Below, one piece after another: positions 32,477 through 61,130 of a DNA stretch of 64,000 bases (within the stretch, counting starts at the first letter, position 1; each line of letters begins with the position of its first letter). Under the pieces are notes generated by a model. The model saw nothing but the letters and a program-made list of their open reading frames with translations, did not search any database and was not told the DNA's origin. This DNA comes from Gammaproteobacteria bacterium (GTDB taxonomy: Bacteria > Pseudomonadota > Gammaproteobacteria > Competibacterales > Competibacteraceae), in the NCBI GenBank assembly GCA_020846135.1, contig JADLEK010000004.1, positions 1 through 64,000 on the forward strand, written 5' to 3'. Made by a program: the position numbers and the translations under genes.

Positions 32477-33163
32477 ATGCATATTGCCGAAGGTTTCTTG
32501 CCGCCACTGCACGCCGCCGTGTGGACTGCGGTTGCTTTGCCGTTTGTCATCGCCGGCGCCCGCCGCGCCAATCGTCTGATGCAGGATCAACCACAAACCA
32601 AGTTGCTGCTGGCGGCGTCGGGCGCATTCGCTTTTGTGCTGTCGGCGCTTAAGCTGCCGTCGGTGACCGGCAGTTGTTCTCATGCGACCGGCGCCGGACT
32701 GGGCGCGATCCTGTTTGGCCCCTCGGTGATGGCGCTGTTGGGAACCATCGTGCTGCTATTTCAGGCGTTATTACTGGCGCATGGCGGCTTGACCACGCTG
32801 GGCGCGAACGTATTTTCCATGGCGATTGTTGGGCCGTGGGTCGCCTATGGATTACTACGCGGGACCCAGCGCTTGCACGCGCCGCTGGCGGTCAGCGTAT
32901 TTCTGGCGGCCATGCTGGGCGATATGGCGACCTATGCCGTCACTGCCGGCCAATTGGCCTTGGCGTTTCCCGATCCGGCCAGTGGCGTTGCGGGATCATT
33001 TATCAAGTTCATAGGCATCTTCGCCCCAACGCAACTGCCGCTGGCGGTGATCGAGGGGCTGCTGACTGTCGTCATCGTCAATTTATTGCAGCAATACAGC
33101 CAGAATGAATTGCGTGAGTTGCAGGCTTTTCCCCAATGGTCGGCAGTGGAGATCCGCTCATGA
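32477..33163 (+). CDS. cbiM: cobalt/nickel ECF transporter substrate-binding subunit CbiM
   Basis: A 228-residue membrane protein with about six to seven helices. The mature N-terminus MHIAEGFL carries the His2 that coordinates the metal in CbiM/Nik[36 protein letters not shown] is the family signature including the second metal-binding histidine. GGAGG lies about 10 bases before the ATG. It is first in cbiM-cbiN-cbiQ-cbiO, controlled by the upstream cobalamin riboswitch, so cobalt is the more likely substrate. Confidence 0.95.
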
Positions 33164-33477
33164 ACCGGCATAACCTCGGCCTGATCGCGATAGCGGTCGT
33201 GTTGGTTGTCATTTCGCTGATTATGGGCGGTCGACAGGAAGGCGCAGAATTTGCCGGCGCTGATGGGCAGGCGATGGCGGCAGTCGCCACGCTTCAGCCT
33301 GATTATCAACCCTGGTTCAGCCCGATCTGGCAACCGCCGTCCGGCGAGGTGGAAGGTCTGCTGTTTGCGTTGCAGGCGGCCCTGGGCACGGGATTACTCG
33401 GTTACTACCTCGGCCTCCGGCGCGGCCAGTCCCAGTCCCGCGCACGGCAACCGGATCGGGTTGATGCAGGCGATTGA
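33160..33477 (+). CDS. cbiN: cobalt ECF transporter auxiliary subunit CbiN
   Basis: A 105-residue protein with two membrane helices: residues about 5-24 ([18 protein letters not shown]) and about 68-88 ([20 protein letters not shown]). The short extracytoplasmic loop contains FAGADGQA and [16 protein letters not shown], typical of CbiN. In related systems CbiN helps load metal into CbiM. The start overlaps the cbiM stop by four bases (ATGA). The C-terminus has a longer polar tail than usual and overlaps cbiQ by 14 bases. Confidence 0.9.
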
Positions 33478-34216
33478 TCATCACGCCTGGACGAACCGCT
33501 GGCGGAACCGGCATCCCGTCGAAAAGCTGTTGCCGGCCTTGACTCTTCTCGCGCTGACTCTGGCGTTGCCGCCATTGACCATCGGCCCGCTGGTATTGGC
33601 GGCGACCCTGCTGGCCACGGTGCGCGGCGCGGGAATCCCCCTGAAAACCGTCCTGAGCGTACTGGCCGCGCCGGCGGCGTTTCTGCTGGCCGGCGCGCCC
33701 TTTCTGGCAATTTCAGTCCGCTTCCACGATGGTTTTAGCGTCCAGTTCTCTCCGGATGGGTTGCGCCTGGCGGTGGATACGATGGTGCGGGCGCTGGCGG
33801 CGACCAGTTGCCTGACCGCGCTGATCCTGACCACGCCGCTGACCGATCTGGTTCCGTTGTTGCGCCGGGTCGGCGTTCCGACCGGGATCGTTGAGCTGAT
33901 TCTGCTGATTTACCGGTTGATTTTCGTCTTCGCCGAGCGGGCGTTGACCGGACGGCAGGCACAAGCGGCCCGGCTAGGCTATTCCAGCGTACCGCGTGGG
34001 ATACGCTCTGCTGGCTGGCTGGCAGGTGCGCTGTTTCAGCGGGCGTTGGAGCGGGCGCAGCGGCTGGAATTAGGCTTGACCGCCCGGGGTTACGCCGGCG
34101 AATTGCGGGTATTGCCGTCGGAGTGCGCGCTGTCCTGGTCCCGGTTGGCGCTGAGCATGACCTTGGTTGGACTGATCGGTTTGACCAGCAGTCTGCTGGC
34201 GCGCGGGCTGGCATGA
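33464..34216 (+). CDS. cbiQ: cobalt ECF transporter transmembrane subunit CbiQ
   Basis: A 250-residue T component. It begins [23 protein letters not shown], a CbiQ-like N-terminus, then has four to five membrane helices. The coupling helices that contact the ATPase include the conserved ARG motif here as LTARGYAGEL (about 217-226) and the earlier AARLGYSS. It overlaps cbiN by 14 bases and cbiO by 4 bases. Confidence 0.92.
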   Translation: MQAIDHHAWTNRWRNRHPVEKLLPALTLLALTLALPPLTIGPLVLAATLLATVRGAGIPLKTVLSVLAAPAAFLLAGAPFLAISVRFHDGFSVQFSPDGLRLAVDTMVRALAATSCLTALILTTPLTDLVPLLRRVGVPTGIVELILLIYRLIFVFAERALTGRQAQAARLGYSSVPRGIRSAGWLAGALFQRALERAQRLELGLTARGYAGELRVLPSECALSWSRLALSMTLVGLIGLTSSLLARGLA

Positions 34217-35034
34217 CCGTTCCGCTGCTGACCGTTCGCGGCGTCGACTATGCCTATCCAGGCGGAGTCATGGCGCTGCGCAATCTGAATCTGACCGTTG
34301 AGAAAGGCCAAAAACTGGCAATCCTCGGCCCCAACGGCTCCGGCAAAACCACCCTGCTGCTGCATCTTAACGGCGCTTTTCAGCCGACATGCGGCGAAAT
34401 CCGGCTGGAGGATCGGCCAGCAGGCTATGACCGCCGTTCCCTGACCGATTGGCGGCGGCGGGTCGGTCTGGTGTTGCAGGAGCCGGATGATCAATTGTTC
34501 GCCGCTACCGTGGGTCAGGATGTGTCGTTCGGGCCGCTGAATCTGGGCCTGACCGCGGTGGAAACCCGGGAGCGGGTCGGCGAGGCGCTGGCGGCGTTGC
34601 GGATTGATCATTTGGCGGATCGGGCGACGCATACCCTCAGTTTCGGCCAGAAGAAGCGGGTGGCGATGGCCGGGGTTCTGGCGATGCGTCCGGAGATTCT
34701 GGCGCTGGACGAACCGACCGCCGGACTGGACTCGCACGGCGTCGCCCATTTGCTCGATGCGTTGCAGCGCTTGCACGAGGCCGGAACGACCCTGGTGTTT
34801 TCGACCCACGATGTGGAACTGGCCTACGCCTGGGCCGATCAGGCCGCAATTTTTCAGGATGGAACGGTGCTGCGTCAGGGCGAAACCACCGCGGTGCTGG
34901 CGGATCGGGACCTGTTGCAGCAGGCGCGGCTGCGGCCGCCGCTGCTGCTGGAATTAGCGCAACTGCTGCCGGGGCCGCTGCTGCGATCCAGAGAGGCTGT
35001 GCTGGCGCAGTTGCAGGAGCGCTTGCAAGGTTGA
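34213..35034 (+). CDS. cbiO: cobalt ECF transporter ATPase CbiO
   Basis: A 273-residue ABC ATPase. Walker A GPNGSGKTT is at 39-47, Q-loop LQEPDDQLF, signature LSFGQKKRVAMAGVLA, Walker B ILALDEPTAGLD and switch His in STHDVELA. The QEPDDQLF form is typical of ECF-type ATPases. A C-terminal extension of about 45 residues follows the ATPase core. It completes the cbiMNQO module; the ATG overlaps the cbiQ stop (ATGA). Confidence 0.95.
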   Translation: MTVPLLTVRGVDYAYPGGVMALRNLNLTVEKGQKLAILGPNGSGKTTLLLHLNGAFQPTCGEIRLEDRPAGYDRRSLTDWRRRVGLVLQEPDDQLFAATVGQDVSFGPLNLGLTAVETRERVGEALAALRIDHLADRATHTLSFGQKKRVAMAGVLAMRPEILALDEPTAGLDSHGVAHLLDALQRLHEAGTTLVFSTHDVELAYAWADQAAIFQDGTVLRQGETTAVLADRDLLQQARLRPPLLLELAQLLPGPLLRSREAVLAQLQERLQG

Positions 35035-35120: not shown

Positions 35121-36986
35121 ATGCGCTACGACATCCAACTGTTGCCCATCCCGGCCTTCGCCGACGCATTGCAACAACAATCGGTGGATGACCTTAAAAA
35201 AATCGCGGCACAGATCAGCGATGAAAAGAACAGACTGGTTCGCAAGGCGGATTTGGTGAACTTCATTCGGCAACAGCTCAGCATTGATCCAGGCCGGTTA
35301 CGCCAGGTTGAGAATGACCCATTGCAAGGCTTCTGGCGCAAGCTCGACTCCTTGCAGCAGGCGGCCATCGCTGAAGTCGCGCATGGCCCTAATCCTTGGT
35401 TTGACCCGGATCGCTTTGAAGCCAAGCACGGCCAGTCGCCGAACTGGGGCCAGCGCGACCACTGCTACAACCTTACCCCTTCGTTGTTGGGCGTGTTCTT
35501 CTTCAACGGGGTTATGCCCGACGATCTGCGCCGCCGCTTCAAATCCTTTGCGCCAAAACCCGAACCGGTGCGACTCTCGCCGTTATCCGAACTGCCGGCG
35601 GAATGGGTGCTGACTGATGAGAAATTGGATCCGAAAACCCGCGCTACGACGGTGGTGCAGAAGCCGGTCCCGATCACGATCCGACTGACCGATCGGGCGG
35701 CGATTCACGATCTCAAGGCGATATTGCGACTGATTGACGCCGGCAAACTGGCGGTCAGCGACAAGACCAGCCAGCCTGGAATTGCGGCGGTGCGAACCGT
35801 GGACGCTTTATTGCTGGGCGGCGATTTCTATGACGACAGCGACTACCCGGAAGAGCAGAAGATCGGCCCGATCAGAGCCTTTGCCTGGCCGATGCTGGCG
35901 CAGGGCGGCAAACTGGCGGTACTGAGCGGCAAGATCCTGCAATTGACCAAGGCCGGGCAGAAGGCGCTCACCGATCCAGTCGAAAAAACCCTGGCGCAGA
36001 TGTGGCGGCACTGGCTGAAAACCACGGTGTTCGATGAGTTTCTGCGGATCGACCTGATCAAGGGCCAGACCGGTAAAGGCAAACGCGGCTTGACCGCGCC
36101 GTCCGGGCGGCGGGCGGCGCTGCATCAGGCGTTGCGCGGCTGCCCGCCGGGGCAATGGATCGGTGTCAACGACCTGTTTCGCCAGATGTGGGCCAATGGC
36201 GCAGGGTTCGAGATCACCCGCGATCCCTATAACCTCTACGTTAGCCAGCCCGGCTACGATCTGGGTTCCGAGGATTATCGGCACTGGCGACTGCTCCAGG
36301 CCCGTTATGCGCTCTGCGTCCTGTTTGAATACGCCGCCACCTTGGGTCTGATCGATGTCGCCTATATCCCGCCGCAGGGCGCCCGCCGCGATTATGGCGA
36401 ACTGTGGCGGATCGCCCGTTGGCCGTTTGTCAGCCGCTATGACGGCCTGCTCTATCTCCGGGTCAACCCGCTGGGCGCGTACTGCCTGGAACTGACCGGT
36501 CATTACCAGCCCTCCGCCCCGGAGATCGCCTCGACGCCGCTGGTGAGGGTATTGCCGAATCTGGAAATCGCCGCCATTGGCCCCCACCTGGAACCGGCGG
36601 ACGCCATGCTGCTGGATAGTTATGCCGAGAAGATCTCCGACGCGGTCTGGAAACTGGATCAGGATCGCCTGATTGAAGCGCTGGAAAACGGTCATGAACT
36701 GACGGCGCTGGCGGAATTGCTGGTGTCGTTGAGCGGTCAGCCGTTGCCGGAAACGGTTGAGCGGTTTCTGACCGATATGAACCACCGCGCCCGCAGCCTG
36801 CAAGCACAGGGAACCGCCAAGCTGATCGAATGCGCTGATGCGATGCTGGCGACCTTGATCGCCAATGACAGTCGCACCAAACCGTTTTGCCTGCTGGCGG
36901 GGGAACGGCATCTGGCGGTGCCAGTTGAGGGCGAAACCCGATTCCGCAGCGCCCTCCGTAAACTGGGTTATGGTCTCCCCCGATGA
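35121..36986 (+). CDS. helicase-associated partner protein of bacterial XPB
   Basis: 621 residues. The sequence resembles the bacterial helicase-associated (Helicase_C_3-like) proteins encoded next to XPB/Rad25 helicases, best known in actinobacteria. The N-terminus DDLKKIAAQISDEKNRLVRKADLVNFIRQQL looks like a small helical binding module. Winged-helix-like segments and a C-terminal region (ALENGHELTALAELLVSLSGQPLPETVERFLTDM) follow. There is no Walker motif, so it is not itself a motor. The ATG at 35121 is preferred over an in-frame TTG three codons earlier. Its stop overlaps the helicase ATG (ATGA). The function in bacteria is unproven; a DNA-repair partner is the usual suggestion. Confidence 0.75.
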   Translation: MRYDIQLLPIPAFADALQQQSVDDLKKIAAQISDEKNRLVRKADLVNFIRQQLSIDPGRLRQVENDPLQGFWRKLDSLQQAAIAEVAHGPNPWFDPDRFEAKHGQSPNWGQRDHCYNLTPSLLGVFFFNGVMPDDLRRRFKSFAPKPEPVRLSPLSELPAEWVLTDEKLDPKTRATTVVQKPVPITIRLTDRAAIHDLKAILRLIDAGKLAVSDKTSQPGIAAVRTVDALLLGGDFYDDSDYPEEQKIGPIRAFAWPMLAQGGKLAVLSGKILQLTKAGQKALTDPVEKTLAQMWRHWLKTTVFDEFLRIDLIKGQTGKGKRGLTAPSGRRAALHQALRGCPPGQWIGVNDLFRQMWANGAGFEITRDPYNLYVSQPGYDLGSEDYRHWRLLQARYALCVLFEYAATLGLIDVAYIPPQGARRDYGELWRIARWPFVSRYDGLLYLRVNPLGAYCLELTGHYQPSAPEIASTPLVRVLPNLEIAAIGPHLEPADAMLLDSYAEKISDAVWKLDQDRLIEALENGHELTALAELLVSLSGQPLPETVERFLTDMNHRARSLQAQGTAKLIECADAMLATLIANDSRTKPFCLLAGERHLAVPVEGETRFRSALRKLGYGLPR

Positions 36987-38659
36987 GTGATTACGTTCCT
37001 GATAATCCATTGATCGTGCAAAGCGATCAAACCGTGCTGCTGGAAGTGCATTCCCCGCGCAGCGAAGCGGCTCGCGAGGCGATTGTGCCGTTTGCGGAAT
37101 TGCTCAAAAGTCCCGAACACATCCACACCTACCGCATCACTCCACTGAGCATCTGGAACGCCCGCGCCTCCGGCCTGAGTACCGCGGCGATGGTGGCGAC
37201 TCTGCGCGAGTACGCCAAATACCCGATCCCGGAAGGAGTCGCCCAGGAGATCGATGCGCTGGGTCGGCGCTACGGGCTGGCGGTCATTGACCGCGCTGCC
37301 GATCAGGGGCTGGTGCTGTGGGTAGCGGATCCGGCGCTGGCGGAACTGCTGGCCCGCGACCGGCAGGTGGCGCCGCTGTTGAGCGAGCGGCTGGGCGACC
37401 TGCAATTCCGGATCAAGCTCGGGGTGCGCGGCTTGCTCAAGCAGGCGCTGGTCGCTATTGGCTATCCGGCGGACGATCTGGCCGGCTACAGCGAGGGCCA
37501 GGAATTGCCGCTGCGCCTGCGCGAAATCTGCGCCAGTGGTGGGCCGTTCCGGGTCCGTGAATACCAGTGGGAAGCGGCGGAAGCGTTCTATCAGGACGGC
37601 CAGGCCCGGGGCGGCAGTGGAGTGATTGTGCTGCCGTGCGGGGCGGGAAAAACCATTGTCGGGATGGCGGTCATGGCGCTGGCGCAGGAAAACACCCTGA
37701 TTCTGACCACCAGCCAGACCTCAATGGAACAATGGCGGCGGGAGCTGCTGGACAAGACCGACCTGCCGGCGGACGCCATCGCCGAATACAGCGGGCAGCG
37801 CAAGGATACCGGCGCGGTGACCGTGGCGACTTATCAGATGCTCACCTACCGCGCCAGCAAGGACGGCGAGTTTGTCCATTTCGGCCTGTTCCACGCCCGC
37901 GCCTGGGGATTGATCATTTATGACGAGGTGCATCTGTTGCCCGCGCCGGTGTTTCGCATCACCGCCGAACTGCAATCGCGCCGCCGGTTAGGATTGACGG
38001 CGACCCTGATTCGGGAAGACGGGCTGGAGAAAGATGTCTTTGCGCTGATCGGCCCGAAACGCTATGACGCGCCATGGCGGGAACTGGAAGGGCAGGGCTG
38101 GATCGCCGCCGCTGATTGCGTCGAGTTCCGGCTGCGGCAAACCCCGGAGCGGGATATGGAATACGCCCTGGCTCCCCGCCGCAACCAGTTTCGGATTGCT
38201 GCGGAAAATCCCCGCAAGCGTCTGGTGGTCAAGGAATTGCTGCAACGGGAAGCCGGGCATCGGATTCTGGTGATCGGCGAATATCTGGACCAGTTGGCGG
38301 CGCTGGCGACGGACACCGGCTTTCCGTTGCTGACTGGCAAGACCCCGCAGCTGGAGCGGGAGAAGCTGTATCAGGCGTTCCGGGCGCGGAGCGTCCCAGG
38401 GCTGGTGCTGTCGCGGGTGGGTAATTTTGCAGTGGATTTGCCCGATGCCGATGTGCTAATTCAGGTATCCGGCAAGTACGGCTCGCGGCAGGAGGAAGCG
38501 CAACGGCTGGGGCGGGTGCTGCGGCCCAAAGCGGACGGGCGACGGGCGCGGTTTTATACCCTGGTCAGCCTGCGGACCTGTGAGGAGGATTTCGCCCGTC
38601 ACCGGCAACTGTTTCTGACCGAGCAGGGCTATAGCTACCGAATTGAAGGGGAACGCTGA
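36983..38659 (+). CDS. bacterial XPB/Rad25-type DNA helicase
   Basis: A 558-residue superfamily 2 helicase. An N-terminal XPB-like damage-recognition region (about 1-185) precedes the motor. Motif I is PCGAGKT at 218-224, motif II is the DEVH box at 314-317, motif III is GLTATL, and the XPB-specific RED motif (Arg344-Glu345-Asp346 in TLIREDG) is present. Motif VI is QEEAQRLGRVLRPK. These mark an XPB 3'-5' helicase rather than RecG or a restriction helicase. In eukaryotes XPB belongs to TFIIH; bacterial copies are 3'-5' helicases whose cellular role is poorly known. It is translationally coupled to the partner upstream. XPB is sporadic in gammaproteobacteria, so acquisition by transfer is possible. 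Confidence 0.9.
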   Translation: MSDYVPDNPLIVQSDQTVLLEVHSPRSEAAREAIVPFAELLKSPEHIHTYRITPLSIWNARASGLSTAAMVATLREYAKYPIPEGVAQEIDALGRRYGLAVIDRAADQGLVLWVADPALAELLARDRQVAPLLSERLGDLQFRIKLGVRGLLKQALVAIGYPADDLAGYSEGQELPLRLREICASGGPFRVREYQWEAAEAFYQDGQARGGSGVIVLPCGAGKTIVGMAVMALAQENTLILTTSQTSMEQWRRELLDKTDLPADAIAEYSGQRKDTGAVTVATYQMLTYRASKDGEFVHFGLFHARAWGLIIYDEVHLLPAPVFRITAELQSRRRLGLTATLIREDGLEKDVFALIGPKRYDAPWRELEGQGWIAAADCVEFRLRQTPERDMEYALAPRRNQFRIAAENPRKRLVVKELLQREAGHRILVIGEYLDQLAALATDTGFPLLTGKTPQLEREKLYQAFRARSVPGLVLSRVGNFAVDLPDADVLIQVSGKYGSRQEEAQRLGRVLRPKADGRRARFYTLVSLRTCEEDFARHRQLFLTEQGYSYRIEGER

Positions 38660-56882: not shown

Positions 56883-59800
56883 CTAGCCTAACCCAGACCG
56901 GGCCAGGTCCTCCAGCAGTAACTGAATTTCCACCGCATATTGATAATGCAGGTTGGGATCCATGGCCAGTGACAGATTGCGTTCGCCCGCCAAAATCGCC
57001 TGAAGTTTCTTAATCAACAGCTTGCCATCTTCGGGAACATTGGGACTGGCCATGATTTGCGCCATTTTAGCGATCATCGCCTCGGTATCGCCGGCCCGGA
57101 TCGCCTGACCAATCTGGGTGCACAACTTGGCTCCGGCATTTGCGTTCTCGCCGCCCACCCGTCGATAAGCCAGATACTTTTGAATCGCCTGCTGTCGAGC
57201 CTGATCGGTGACGCTGGGATTTTGCACCGTCTGGCTCACATCACGCAGACCGCGCCGGATCGCCCAGTTGCGGGCGGTAGGGCTTTCCGGCAGGTTGCAC
57301 TCGCTGGCCCGGTACAACTCCTGCCGGGCTTCGTCAGGCCGCCGCAATTGAATCAGCACGTTAGCCAGGCGGTTGCGGCTGGTCTCCTCGCCGCGCCCAT
57401 CGCCCAGTTGCTGATAGATCTCGGCCATGCGCCGGTAAGCCAGCACCGATTCTTCAAGTTGATTCAGCACCTGATGCAAGTGGGCGAGTTCACCCAGCAC
57501 TTCAGCGACTCCGGCGCGGTTGCGCTGCTGTTCGTACAGGTATAGCGCCTGCTGGGCGGCATTCAGCGCCATTTCCATTTGCCCGCCCAGCTTGCGGGCT
57601 ACGCCCAGTTGCCGCCAGGCCTGGGCCGCGCCTTCCGGTTCGCCCAGTTTTTCAAACGCTTGCCGGGCCGCTTCATACAACAGCGCCGCTTCGGCGTAGC
57701 AACCCTGCCGCTGTCGCACCAGCCCCAGCTGCATTTTGTTGGCGGCGATGGCCGGACTGACCGCATTGGGATCGGTCTGAGCCAGCGCCGTTTCATAAGC
57801 CGCCGCTGCTTCCTGCAACCGCCGCAGATAGCTCAGACAATCGCCGATTTCAGCCCCGGCCACCGCAGCCATCCGCCCGGCGCTGGCATTGCCGGCATCG
57901 GCCAAGGTCTGGAACTGCTGCCGGGCCGCCTCCAGTTCCCGCGCCGCTGGTTCAGCCGCACCGGCCAGTTTCAGCAATTTGCCCAGATCAAACCCGGCCC
58001 GGGCCAGATCATAGGCTGCGCCGGGATAAGCATCGACCTCCGCCACCTGACAGCGGCGCTGCAATTGCCGGGCGGATTGCAGCGCATCCTCCAGCGATCC
58101 AGCCTCGCGCAACCGTTCGATCCGCAGCCGTTCGTTTTCAAACCGGGCGCGATTCCAGTCCTGCAAGGCCAGTCCAGCCCGTTCACGGGCGGCGACCACT
58201 TCCACCAGCGCAGCGGGAACGCCCAGTCCGGCGAGTAACTGCTCCAGTTGTCCCGCCAGCCGGGCCCGCGCCTCCGCAGTGGCGTTTTGCTGGCTGTCGC
58301 GCAGCAGCGCCAGCAGGTTCGGCAATTCCAGCCGCAGCAACCGGCTGGTCCGGGCGCCATCCTTGAAATACTGGGGGTAGACGACCGCCAGAAGCTGGAT
58401 CATGCCGGCGCGCCAGCGGTCCAGCCAAACCGCCTGTTGGTCTGGCTCCAGCCCCTTGGCCAGATGATGGGCCAGCGCCGGATCGAAACGCAGGTGGCCA
58501 TAACCTCGGTCCTCGACCAGGCCTAGTCCGATCAGCCGATCAACCAGCGCATTGATCGCCGATGGTTCCAGCGCCAGGGCATAGCTCAAAGCGAGCCGGT
58601 TGACTCCCTGCCGGAAAAACGCCAGCACTGCCAGGCGTTCCCGATCATGGTCAGGCAACCGGCGCAAGAGCAGTTCCAACCGAAGGTACAACGGCCATTG
58701 CGAATCATCACCGTGCCGGGACAGCAGTTCGCTGTGCAATGGCCGCACCAGCGCCAAGGTCGCCTTGACCCCGCGCGCGCCCATTTCATGGGCCAGTCGG
58801 CGGAGCGCCCCGGGATGACCCCCGGCCAGATCCGCCAGTTCGCATAAGAGTTGAAAACCATCCCCACTATCAGCGGCAGGCGGCGCTTCGTGGGTGGCTA
58901 ACAGGGTTTGCTTGAGCAGGGCTATTGCATCATTTTCATCGAGGGGACCCAGTTTCATTTCGGTCCAGGGCCGGGCGAAGGCAGGCGGTCCCAGTCGCCC
59001 CAGTCCCAACAACCGCAACCCCGGCCAGTCATCCAGCCATTGTTTCCAGAACTGATCGAACAATTCCTCGTGTTCCGCCGGCCATTGCTCCAACTGATCC
59101 AGCACGATCAGCGCCGGCTGGGCGCGCAGGGTCTGGCGCAGATCGTCCAGCGCCTGCCAGACGGTCGGATAACGCTCCACCGACCAGTGGCCACCATCAG
59201 GAAGCAACTGCCGACCCAGGATCCCCAGCAGCGGAGTCAGTTCCCCGGCATCGCCGGCATGGACATACGCAATCCGGCGGAAACGCCGGTTGCTCTCCAG
59301 CCACCTCGCCAGGGCGGCGGCGGCGGTGGTTTTGCCACTGCCGCCGCCGCCCTGCAGAAAGACGGTGGTCCGATCTTCAAGCAGTCGTTCCAGTCTGAGC
59401 AGATCACGACTGCGCCCGATGAAGCCGGTGGCGGGAGCTTCGGGGAGCAGGCCCAGCGAACTGGCTCGCGGCTGATTGCTCAACCGACGCCACAGTTCCA
59501 GCGGCGGGCGCAGCATCAGCCGGGGATCGCGCTCACCCAGATACAGCGCACTGATGAACTCGTCCTGCAGGTGGACCCCGCCACCGCCCAGGCCTGGCAT
59601 CCGGTAGCTGTCGCTGGTTAGCCGGCGTTGTCCGACGAACAGCGCTTGGCCGATCCGGACGCCCCGCAACAGTTCTTCGTAGAAGGCATTCCAAAACCGG
59701 CGCAAGGTTTCCGCCGGCGCATCGGGGTGAATCGTCAGCACCGCCGCGATTCCGGCGTTCAGCAGCAGGGCGGCCAGACGGACCGCGATGCTCCCGGCGC

Positions 59801-61130
59801 AGATGATCGCAACCAGATGGAGGTGATAGGTGGCCAGCAGCGCCACCAGCGCTGACCCGGCTACAAAGTGGGCATCGCGGCAGGTCGGCGCCAGCGCGTT
59901 GCTGACCGCCTCAAACCCAAAACGGAGGCCATCGCCGTCAGAATCGGCGCACAGGTAGCCATCCAGATGCAGCGCCGTGAAGGGCCGACCCGCCGCCCAG
60001 GCGTCATTCAACCGTTTTTCCAGCGCTGCGAGGCTGGGAGGAGTCAGCGCGGTGAATTCCACCAGTTCGCCGAGTACGCCCAGCGCCTCGGCCAGCGGCA
60101 AGGCGCTGCGTCGGTAGTCAGCATGACCGGTGGGTTCGGTATCGGGACGCGGGCTGATAGTCAGGATGCGCAAGGGCGGCGGCGCGGGCGGAAAGGGGTC
60201 GCCACCGCCAGGCAGCCGGCGCTGGATTTGAATCGGCTGTTTGCCATGACTCAGGAAACCGGCGCCATCGTGCAGGAGTTCCCAGGGCAGCGCGAACAGG
60301 TCGAGTGCAGGAGACGCGGCTTCAGCCTGCACCGTCAAGCGCTGTTCGCCGGGCGCATCGCGCCAGGTGGCGATCAAACCCTGTGAGTCGGGCGCGCCGA
60401 GCGTGATTCGGTGCAGATTCTGGCCCCAGGCGGCCAGCCAGGCATCGGTTTGGCGGACGACCCGCCGGACTGCATCGGTTGGCCAAAGCGGCAGATCCAG
60501 CCAGTAACCGCGCAGAATCCGGGCGGCGGGCGGCGGGGGCAATGGCCCAATCACGGTCGTGATTTCAGCGGTCGGCTTGGTTCCGGGGCCACGATTCAGG
60601 CGGGTGGTCATCCGCCAACGCCCGACTGACGTCGCGGCTTCAGGGCTAAAGGTCAGCGTCAGGTTGGCCAAGGGCGGCGGGTTGCGCTCGGAAGCTGATT
60701 CGGTGGGCAGCGATTCACCCAAAGCGGTCAGCAGCTTCGGCAAGGCTGCCCCCAGACCGCCATCGGTCAGCCGGATCGGGGCGACCCGGGGCGGCGCAGA
60801 GAACCAGGCCACCAGCGTCGCATGATCGACGCCCGGCAACAACAGCGGGATCACCCGATAGCTATTAGCCTGACGCCGCTCCACATCCTGGGCCACTTCG
60901 ATTTCCCGGCGCAACCAGGCCGGATCGCCGGTATTGAGGCCGACCACCACGATCACTTGTCGCGCCTGTTCAATCGCCCAGCGCACGTCGGTGGTGAGCC
61001 GCTCGCTACCGCGCAACTTGCGCTGATCGCGCCAGACGCTAAGCCGGAAGGTTTCCAGCGCAACCGCCAAATCCCGGGCGAAGGCGTCCTCAGTGAACGC
61101 ATGACAGATAAAGACGGAAGCAGCGGTCAT
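56883..61130 (-). CDS. TIR / CHAT-like / NB-ARC / TPR multidomain protein
   Basis: 1415 residues. Residues 1-140 are a TIR domain (MTAASVFICHAFTEDAFARDLAVAL); Glu76 in AWLRREIE matches the NADase glutamate position. About 270-550 is CHAT-like (LFALPWELLHDGAGFLSHG, Leu-Pro-Trp at 281-283), but the protease motif HxxGHG appears as HLDGYL (Tyr392 for the catalytic His) and the usual ACxS as CAGS (Cys444 one position early), so it is probably inactive. About 565-800 is an NB-ARC/STAND ATPase: GFIGR, Walker A GGGGSGKTT (594-602), Walker B LIVLDQ. A winged-helix-like part follows, then TPR repeats (about 1000-1300). The layout is that of bacterial NLR-like defence proteins; function is inferred. 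Confidence 0.85.
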   Translation of the reverse strand: MTAASVFICHAFTEDAFARDLAVALETFRLSVWRDQRKLRGSERLTTDVRWAIEQARQVIVVVGLNTGDPAWLRREIEVAQDVERRQANSYRVIPLLLPGVDHATLVAWFSAPPRVAPIRLTDGGLGAALPKLLTALGESLPTESASERNPPPLANLTLTFSPEAATSVGRWRMTTRLNRGPGTKPTAEITTVIGPLPPPPAARILRGYWLDLPLWPTDAVRRVVRQTDAWLAAWGQNLHRITLGAPDSQGLIATWRDAPGEQRLTVQAEAASPALDLFALPWELLHDGAGFLSHGKQPIQIQRRLPGGGDPFPPAPPPLRILTISPRPDTEPTGHADYRRSALPLAEALGVLGELVEFTALTPPSLAALEKRLNDAWAAGRPFTALHLDGYLCADSDGDGLRFGFEAVSNALAPTCRDAHFVAGSALVALLATYHLHLVAIICAGSIAVRLAALLLNAGIAAVLTIHPDAPAETLRRFWNAFYEELLRGVRIGQALFVGQRRLTSDSYRMPGLGGGGVHLQDEFISALYLGERDPRLMLRPPLELWRRLSNQPRASSLGLLPEAPATGFIGRSRDLLRLERLLEDRTTVFLQGGGGSGKTTAAAALARWLESNRRFRRIAYVHAGDAGELTPLLGILGRQLLPDGGHWSVERYPTVWQALDDLRQTLRAQPALIVLDQLEQWPAEHEELFDQFWKQWLDDWPGLRLLGLGRLGPPAFARPWTEMKLGPLDENDAIALLKQTLLATHEAPPAADSGDGFQLLCELADLAGGHPGALRRLAHEMGARGVKATLALVRPLHSELLSRHGDDSQWPLYLRLELLLRRLPDHDRERLAVLAFFRQGVNRLALSYALALEPSAINALVDRLIGLGLVEDRGYGHLRFDPALAHHLAKGLEPDQQAVWLDRWRAGMIQLLAVVYPQYFKDGARTSRLLRLELPNLLALLRDSQQNATAEARARLAGQLEQLLAGLGVPAALVEVVAARERAGLALQDWNRARFENERLRIERLREAGSLEDALQSARQLQRRCQVAEVDAYPGAAYDLARAGFDLGKLLKLAGAAEPAARELEAARQQFQTLADAGNASAGRMAAVAGAEIGDCLSYLRRLQEAAAAYETALAQTDPNAVSPAIAANKMQLGLVRQRQGCYAEAALLYEAARQAFEKLGEPEGAAQAWRQLGVARKLGGQMEMALNAAQQALYLYEQQRNRAGVAEVLGELAHLHQVLNQLEESVLAYRRMAEIYQQLGDGRGEETSRNRLANVLIQLRRPDEARQELYRASECNLPESPTARNWAIRRGLRDVSQTVQNPSVTDQARQQAIQKYLAYRRVGGENANAGAKLCTQIGQAIRAGDTEAMIAKMAQIMASPNVPEDGKLLIKKLQAILAGERNLSLAMDPNLHYQYAVEIQLLLEDLARSGLG

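Follow-up and report, generated by a model that had tools for sequence, protein, structure and literature searches.

The overlapping genes and the XPB motor

The window analysed here, 64,000 nucleotides long (contig JADLEK010000004.1 of assembly GCA_020846135.1, positions 1 to 64,000, forward strand), comes from a wastewater bacterium of the Ca. Competibacteraceae (Gammaproteobacteria), whose closest named relative is Ca. Contendobacter (82% identity in the partner protein described below). At positions 35,121 to 38,659 it carries two overlapping genes, the second encoding a helicase of the XPB family and the first a partner protein, which by its predicted fold resembles p52 (Tfb2), the XPB-binding subunit of transcription factor IIH (TFIIH). 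The open reading frames (ORFs) and the elements of the helicase are as follows.

35121..36986, + strand: p52/Tfb2-like partner ORF, from ATG at 35121 to TGA at 36986, stop included (621 codons, 621 aa)
36983..38659, + strand: XPB helicase ORF (558 codons, 558 aa; NF045503, 827.9 bits)
36983..36986, + strand: start/stop overlap of the partner stop and XPB start, shared sequence ATGA
37010..37393, + strand: XPB N-terminal domain (PF13625), residues 10–137, 114.5 bits; the expected partner-docking domain
37634..37654, + strand: XPB Walker A motif PCGAGKT, residues 218–224
37922..37933, + strand: XPB Walker B motif DEVH, residues 314–317
38012..38020, + strand: XPB RED motif, residues 344–346

An earlier note on this DNA had described an XPB helicase with these three motifs, overlapping by ATGA with a 621-residue partner. 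The ORFs bear this out, as does the match of the helicase to the NCBIfam model NF045503 (“DNA repair helicase XPB”), which exceeds the cut-off of 610 bits. The same type of overlap, in which the last and the first codon have one base in common, was found in all 12 Competibacteraceae loci measured. Relative to the nearest relative, the nonsynonymous and synonymous divergences (dN/dS) are 0.106/0.46 for the partner and 0.021/0.297 for XPB. Both genes are under purifying selection, and the values for the partner indicate that it is a real gene.

Human XPB (8ebt_A) can be aligned with residues 6–554 of the helicase. The PCGAGKT, DEVH and RED motifs are invariant across 11 family members, and their core residues, Pro218 and Cys219 excepted, are also invariant in 14 diverse XPBs. 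A further alignment (A8) has 15 rows, with L038 and L043 excluded and L152 added. The N-terminal PF13625 domain is of the bacterial and eukaryotic type, and the domain scan of the window XPB gave no match to the archaeal damage-recognition domain (DRD), which most archaeal XPBs are reported to have in place of PF13625 (PMC3353954). The same source describes DNA-dependent ATPase and 3'-5' helicase/translocase activity for XPB from Mycobacterium tuberculosis. The window XPB is the motor of the pair and would be expected to have the same activity.

A second XPB-like helicase of 496 aa is encoded on another contig of the same genome (L002:1213-2703, contig C32). It is of the archaeal type and contains the damage-recognition domain PF18458, so that, judged by domain content, the source genome holds both the PF13625 and the DRD kinds of XPB.

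Predicted fold of the partner protein

The partner has no motor motif, as the earlier note had stated, though it does contain a PF13625 (XPB N-terminal-like) domain at residues 479–589 (E 1e-7, 32.4 bits, 1.8 bits below the gathering score of 34.2). This family is matched by all 75 aligned partner relatives at E <= 1, with a best value of 2.6e-12; the alignment (A4) holds the window partner and 74 of 80 loci, L072, L095, L098, L117, L130 and L133 having been excluded as partial or redundant. In a profile comparison, columns 479–611 of the partner correspond to residues 24–164 of XPB (probability 87, E 3.8e-6).

The AlphaFold model of the partner, built from the 75 sequences, has a mean pLDDT (predicted local distance difference test) of 88.9 and a pTM (predicted template modelling score) of 0.80. 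It contains the following parts.

35154..35291, + strand: residues 12–57, small helical domain resembling the Rho N-terminal (SAP-like) domain (VIA-align Z 6.3, 46 residues, a middling score)
35562..36515, + strand: residues 148–465, winged-helix region similar to the N-terminal half of p52 (6tru_D, Z 10.2)
36516..36800, + strand: residues 466–560, clutch-like domain (PF13625, E 1e-7) with the fold of the XPB N-terminal domain (6ro4_A, Z 12.2)
36801..36983, + strand: residues 561–621, C-terminal domain resembling the Tfb5/p8-binding domain of Tfb2 (3dgp_A, Z 4.5)

A Foldseek search of the PDB with this model returned 16 chains at E <= 0.001, the best with E 2.3e-7, among them 6trs (“TFIIH subunit p52 in complex with p8”, E 1.8e-6). 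All 16 are taken to be p52 or Tfb2 chains; among the matched entries, the identities of 6trs, 6tru, 3dgp and 3dom are established. The matches that follow them are presumably mostly XPB chains, over ~160–185 columns, and VIA-align places the XPB-chain matches of the partner on the XPB N-terminal domain.

VIA-align superimposes p52 on the partner with Z 15.2 over 301 residues, pairing model residues 148–617 with p52 residues 119–460, the domains following one another as in p52. Taken by itself, the p52 N-terminal half (6tru_D) gives Z 10.2, with a root-mean-square deviation (rmsd) of 3.6 over 158 residues (model 148–458 to p52 121–318). The XPB N-terminal domain matches residues 469–561 with Z 12.2–12.3 and rmsd 2.2–2.6 (for 6ro4_A, rmsd 2.2 over 89 residues). 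The Tfb2 C-terminal domain (3dgp_A; rmsd 2.6, 57 residues) gives a match that is weak when taken alone, as YebC-type proteins reach Z 4.0–4.2, yet it lies in the right place in the domain order. The first unrelated fold in the list is FokI, with Z 4.7. In the model, three successive parts of the partner each match p52, in order, the last one weakly, and by predicted fold the protein is p52/Tfb2-like. Because there is no sequence match to PF03849, it is called p52-like here rather than a member of the Pfam family Tfb2. The earlier note had suggested that fold prediction might reveal a nuclease or a winged-helix domain; the winged helices are there, no nuclease fold is found among the significant PDB matches, and the likeness to p52 had been missed.

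The N-terminal residues 1–147 appear to differ from p52 and comprise the Rho-N/SAP-like domain and a weakly matched winged helix. As to a counterpart of the p52 N-terminal domain (residues 1–118), partner residues 1–190 yielded only the Rho-N match (Z 6.3) and weak winged helices. SAP families are matched in single partner members with E 0.02–0.13, and the alignment of the N-terminal part (A5) covers 49 of the 80 loci. The N-terminus alone gave no Foldseek match at E <= 0.001, a negative that does not rule a fold out.

Co-inheritance, constraint and genomic sites of the pair

Among 59 related genomes, that of the window included, 14 contain the partner, the same 14 contain XPB (E <= 1e-60) and 45 contain neither, that is, the two genes co-occur perfectly. 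In a scan of 84,980 species genomes for partner relatives, of which the best 80 of 302 were used, 45 of the 80 loci include XPB. The partner precedes XPB on the same strand in 40 of these loci, the order is reversed in four, and in one the genes are on opposite strands. The gap is 100 bases or less in 22 of the 40, a count that includes L098, for which the computed gap of -642 is an effect of a truncated match. Ten of the 35 partner genomes lacking XPB in the locus have it elsewhere. Hosts of the partner include Cyanobacteria, Acidobacteria, Chloroflexi, Planctomycetes and Burkholderiales, and the pair, ordered as in the window, is also present on a plasmid of the cyanobacterium Gloeocapsopsis dulcis. 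The pairwise distances of XPB and the partner correlate over 32 loci (Pearson 0.81, Spearman 0.61), with a Spearman coefficient of only 0.36 for pairs whose XPB distance exceeds 0.2. The correlation is weak evidence, because shared species history alone would yield the same.

Should the clutch and C-terminal domains serve to hold XPB, relaxed constraint on them would be expected in its absence. On a partner tree made without these two domains, whose limits were set from the model, 18 of the 24 XPB-less partner rows cluster together. The 51 XPB-bearing rows share 151 conserved positions, of which 44 are in the clutch and C-terminal domains. Of the 151, 17 are lost in the XPB-less clade, 14 of them within the two domains (hypergeometric 2e-6, ignoring the relatedness of the rows). 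In four control clades that keep XPB, the corresponding changes are 2/4, 4/20, 0/5 and 7/17, in total 13/46. One locus, L106, groups with the XPB-less clade yet has XPB, and it retains XPB-type residues. The remaining six XPB-less rows lie outside the main clade and were excluded from the comparison: XPB-type residues mostly persist in L093, L100 and L096, two Pseudanabaena isolates fall in between, and L126 has diverged strongly. As read from these alignments, the constraint on the predicted docking domains goes with the presence of XPB.

In the XPB tree (57 rows, 9 partial XPBs having been dropped), the Competibacteraceae copies form one group of 12 rows with a support of 100 in the Shimodaira–Hasegawa-like approximate likelihood ratio test (SH-aLRT), nested in a set of 35 rows (SH-aLRT 99), the remainder of which are all Cyanobacteria. 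The pair lies in the window between a cobalt-transport block and a response-regulator/kinase block. In four of five relatives examined (G001, G002, G004 and G010), these two blocks are divergent, ~510–570 bases apart and without the pair, and in three of the four (G001, G004 and G010) the pair is found on a different contig. The fifth relative (G003) has the blocks on separate contigs. As the flanking blocks adjoin without the pair in relatives, and the window has the cobalt block in inverted orientation, either the pair has moved or its surroundings have rearranged around it. Such motion between sites is in line with the earlier note, which held the unit to be probably acquired. A search for transposon ends by repeats gave short matches only, none of which flank the pair at both ends. 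The inverted cobalt block (32477–35034) comprises genes for CbiM, CbiQ and an ABC ATPase, and its orientation differs from that in four related genomes.

Several partner loci show features of their own. Tandem partner paralogues are found at L140:6087-9836 and L086:2552-6162. In several XPB-less Burkholderiales and one Nodosilinea (L129, L120, L125, L138 and L099), a related ORF is found close to the partner gene; that of L129 (L129:717-2906) encodes a RecD2-like helicase. A partner gene is present on a 4649-base contig of an Asgard metagenome-assembled genome (MAG), Ca. Thorarchaeota (L119), and groups with the Chloroflexota copies; this genome also has a canonical XPB, and the finding, due to transfer or contamination, may bear on the origins of TFIIH. 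The MAG named Synechococcaceae cyanobacterium SM1_2_3 (L069, JAAUTD010000345.1) contains Competibacteraceae XPB and partner genes, and the same gene occurs on a 4151-base contig in the Competibacteraceae genome G034; the name of L069 looks wrong or the bin mixed.

Proposed mechanism, alternatives and related systems

In TFIIH, p52 and XPB are each reported to contribute one of two homologous domains to a pseudo-symmetric dimer that joins them (PMC6422496), and p52 is reported to set the ATPase of XPB (PMC7708078). Because both halves of this domain dimer are encoded in the pair, it is predicted to be a DNA translocase of two subunits, driven by ATP and working like the XPB–p52 module of TFIIH, with a probability of about 0.78. 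XPB is the motor; the clutch domain of the partner would pair with its homologue at the N-terminus of XPB, and the C-terminal domain of the partner would stabilise the motor. The partner would in this way anchor XPB and set its ATPase, leaving its winged helices and the Rho-N/SAP-like N-terminus available for contacts with DNA or a third protein. The cellular role might be the opening or clearing of DNA at lesions or at blocked RNA polymerase, beside UvrABC and Mfd. Since UvrA and Mfd are both encoded in the source genome, the pair does not replace them. Deletion of ercc3, the XPB gene of M. tuberculosis, is reported to increase killing by rifampin 2.6-fold under starvation (PMC10534295), a phenotype that, by analogy, is compatible with work at blocked RNA polymerase. 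The assignment of a bacterial XPB to a two-component unit, made in the earlier note, is upheld by these results.

Several observations weigh against this prediction. The Pfam models Tfb2 (PF03849) and Tfb5 have no match in the whole genome at E <= 10, and no p8 was found; when the 75 partner members were run through hmmscan at E <= 1, Tfb2 was not one of the 25 families listed out of 33; and the partner profile has no match to PDB sequences at E <= 10. The alignment with p52 has an rmsd of ~6 Å, probably due to differing angles between the domains of the model, and the best-matching p52 chains reach Foldseek TM-scores of 0.32–0.42. The evidence for an XPB-linked constraint comes largely from a single clade. 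PMC10534295 also cites a different screen (Li et al.) in which ercc3 had no effect. Finally, 25 of the 35 genomes with no XPB in the partner locus contain no canonical XPB at E <= 1e-60, many of them being drafts. The earlier note had held that a partner shared with ordinary superfamily 2 helicases would speak against its reading; such sharing was not found in that form, but the partner does occur in these 25 genomes.

The partner might, instead, share only PF13625 with XPB and owe its winged helices to independent assembly, being a DNA-binding regulator that stands in the XPB operon by chance. Winged helices are common, and the missing Tfb2 match and the 25 genomes with the partner and no XPB would fit such a protein. 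However, the part of the partner preceding the clutch aligns on its own with the p52 N-terminal half (Z 10.2), unrelated folds in the list stopping at Z 4.7, the domain order is that of p52, and the constraint that is lost together with XPB is lost in exactly the docking domains, which makes the regulator unlikely. The two proteins could also form an anti-phage or anti-plasmid defence system, the role considered in the earlier note. The pair is patchily distributed (14 of the 59 relatives), occupies different sites in different genomes and is found on plasmids, and XPB-less copies of the partner lie near Wadjet in Cupriavidus and near Hachiman in Polaromonas. Against this, PADLOC matched the partner to none of its families and XPB only partially, in the helicase region (PbeA, DinG, HmaA, Cas3-like). 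In a tally of neighbours (20 loci of each kind, up to three ORFs of at least 120 aa per side), no defence family recurred among the up to 25 families listed for each kind, the highest counts being 3 of 103 and 2 of 111 ORFs scanned, without assignment of the matches to single loci. Viral contigs contained no copy of the partner and no relative with either query, the viral fold library gave no match to the partner model at E <= 0.001, and the significant fold matches include no nuclease. For want of recurrent defence neighbours, the defence role is rejected as unsupported and is held to be quite improbable. The archaeal XPB pairs with the nuclease Bax1, as described in PMC7672443, and the window pair might be the bacterial counterpart of such a helicase and nuclease. 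As the fold of the partner is p52-like rather than nuclease-like, and the window XPB has PF13625 in place of the DRD, the DRD-type XPB being the separate gene on contig C32, this relationship is very improbable.

Compared with the XPB–p52(–p8) module of TFIIH (Ssl2–Tfb2–Tfb5 in yeast), the bacterial pair likewise combines an XPB that has a PF13625 N-terminal domain with a partner that has winged helices, clutch and C-terminal domain in the p52 order. It differs in consisting of two overlapping bacterial genes, with no p8 found, and in the extra Rho-N/SAP-like N-terminus and lack of a detectable Tfb2 match of the partner. The archaeal XPB–Bax1 pair is similar in joining an XPB-family motor to a dedicated partner, which there, unlike here, is a nuclease. 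A Tfb5 match in one partner member (E 0.058) was taken as chance. Small ORFs beside XPB in Deinococcus (99 aa), Actinomyces (99 aa) and Nostoc (110 aa), considered as p8 candidates, were rejected, as they have no Tfb5 match and the Nostoc ORF is Ycf66-like.

Earlier papers describe bacteria as lacking a p52 partner. Searches of open-access literature, covering few subscription papers or preprints, turned up no account of a bacterial p52 or of what the PF13625 partner does. What XPB does in archaea and bacteria is described as more elusive in a 2026 review (PMC13024598), the consulted passages of which mention no bacterial p52. A bacterial p52 would give bacterial XPB a defined partner and predict the interface between them. 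It would also offer a two-protein system in which to study how p52 anchors and throttles XPB, the step hit by human XPB disease mutations, and make the origin of the XPB–p52 part of TFIIH testable.

Longer proteins containing PF13625 are found beside XPB in Paenibacillus, Deinococcus and Actinomyces. A profile of these three and of similar XPB-adjacent proteins from Chloroflexi and Planctomycetes genomes (A6) matches the window partner over 317 columns (probability 99.2, E 1.5e-19). The proteins of the three genera, named “helicase-associated domain-containing protein”, resemble the partner in being XPB neighbours with PF13625, but are 657–847 aa long, lie after or opposite XPB and are only distantly similar to it; no description of them as p52-like was found in the literature searched. 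XPB is present in 17 genomes of a sample of 398 Pseudomonadota. In all 16 loci other than that of the window, which belong to lineages f59 and f79, a protein of a 468-aa type is encoded directly upstream of XPB, and one of the 16 also has a window-type partner beside XPB. At L152:3532-4938 and L153:3867-5273, the gene for the 468-aa protein overlaps XPB by four bases and lies next to a class I tRNA synthetase gene. These lineages are similar to the window in the position of the partner gene, overlapping in L152 and L153, but the partner is a different one: it is related to the longer helicase-associated proteins (probability 91.5) and shows no clear relation to the window partner (probability 3.4). 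As PF13625-type or related proteins adjoin XPB in several lineages, a partner of this type looks general for bacterial XPB, and the window partner looks to be one of at least three forms.

It is tentatively proposed, at somewhat less than even odds, that bacterial XPB, rather than acting as a lone helicase, is part of a widespread two-gene XPB–p52 module, that this module is a minimal relative of the translocase arm of TFIIH and predates or seeded the eukaryotic one, that eukaryotic XPB and p52 descend together, and that the helicase-associated proteins of Actinobacteria, Deinococcus, Firmicutes and Chloroflexi belong to the p52 family as well.

Elsewhere in the window, positions 56883–61130 encode a protein of 1415 aa that combines a TIR domain at its N-terminus with TPR repeats, possibly a defence or signalling protein.

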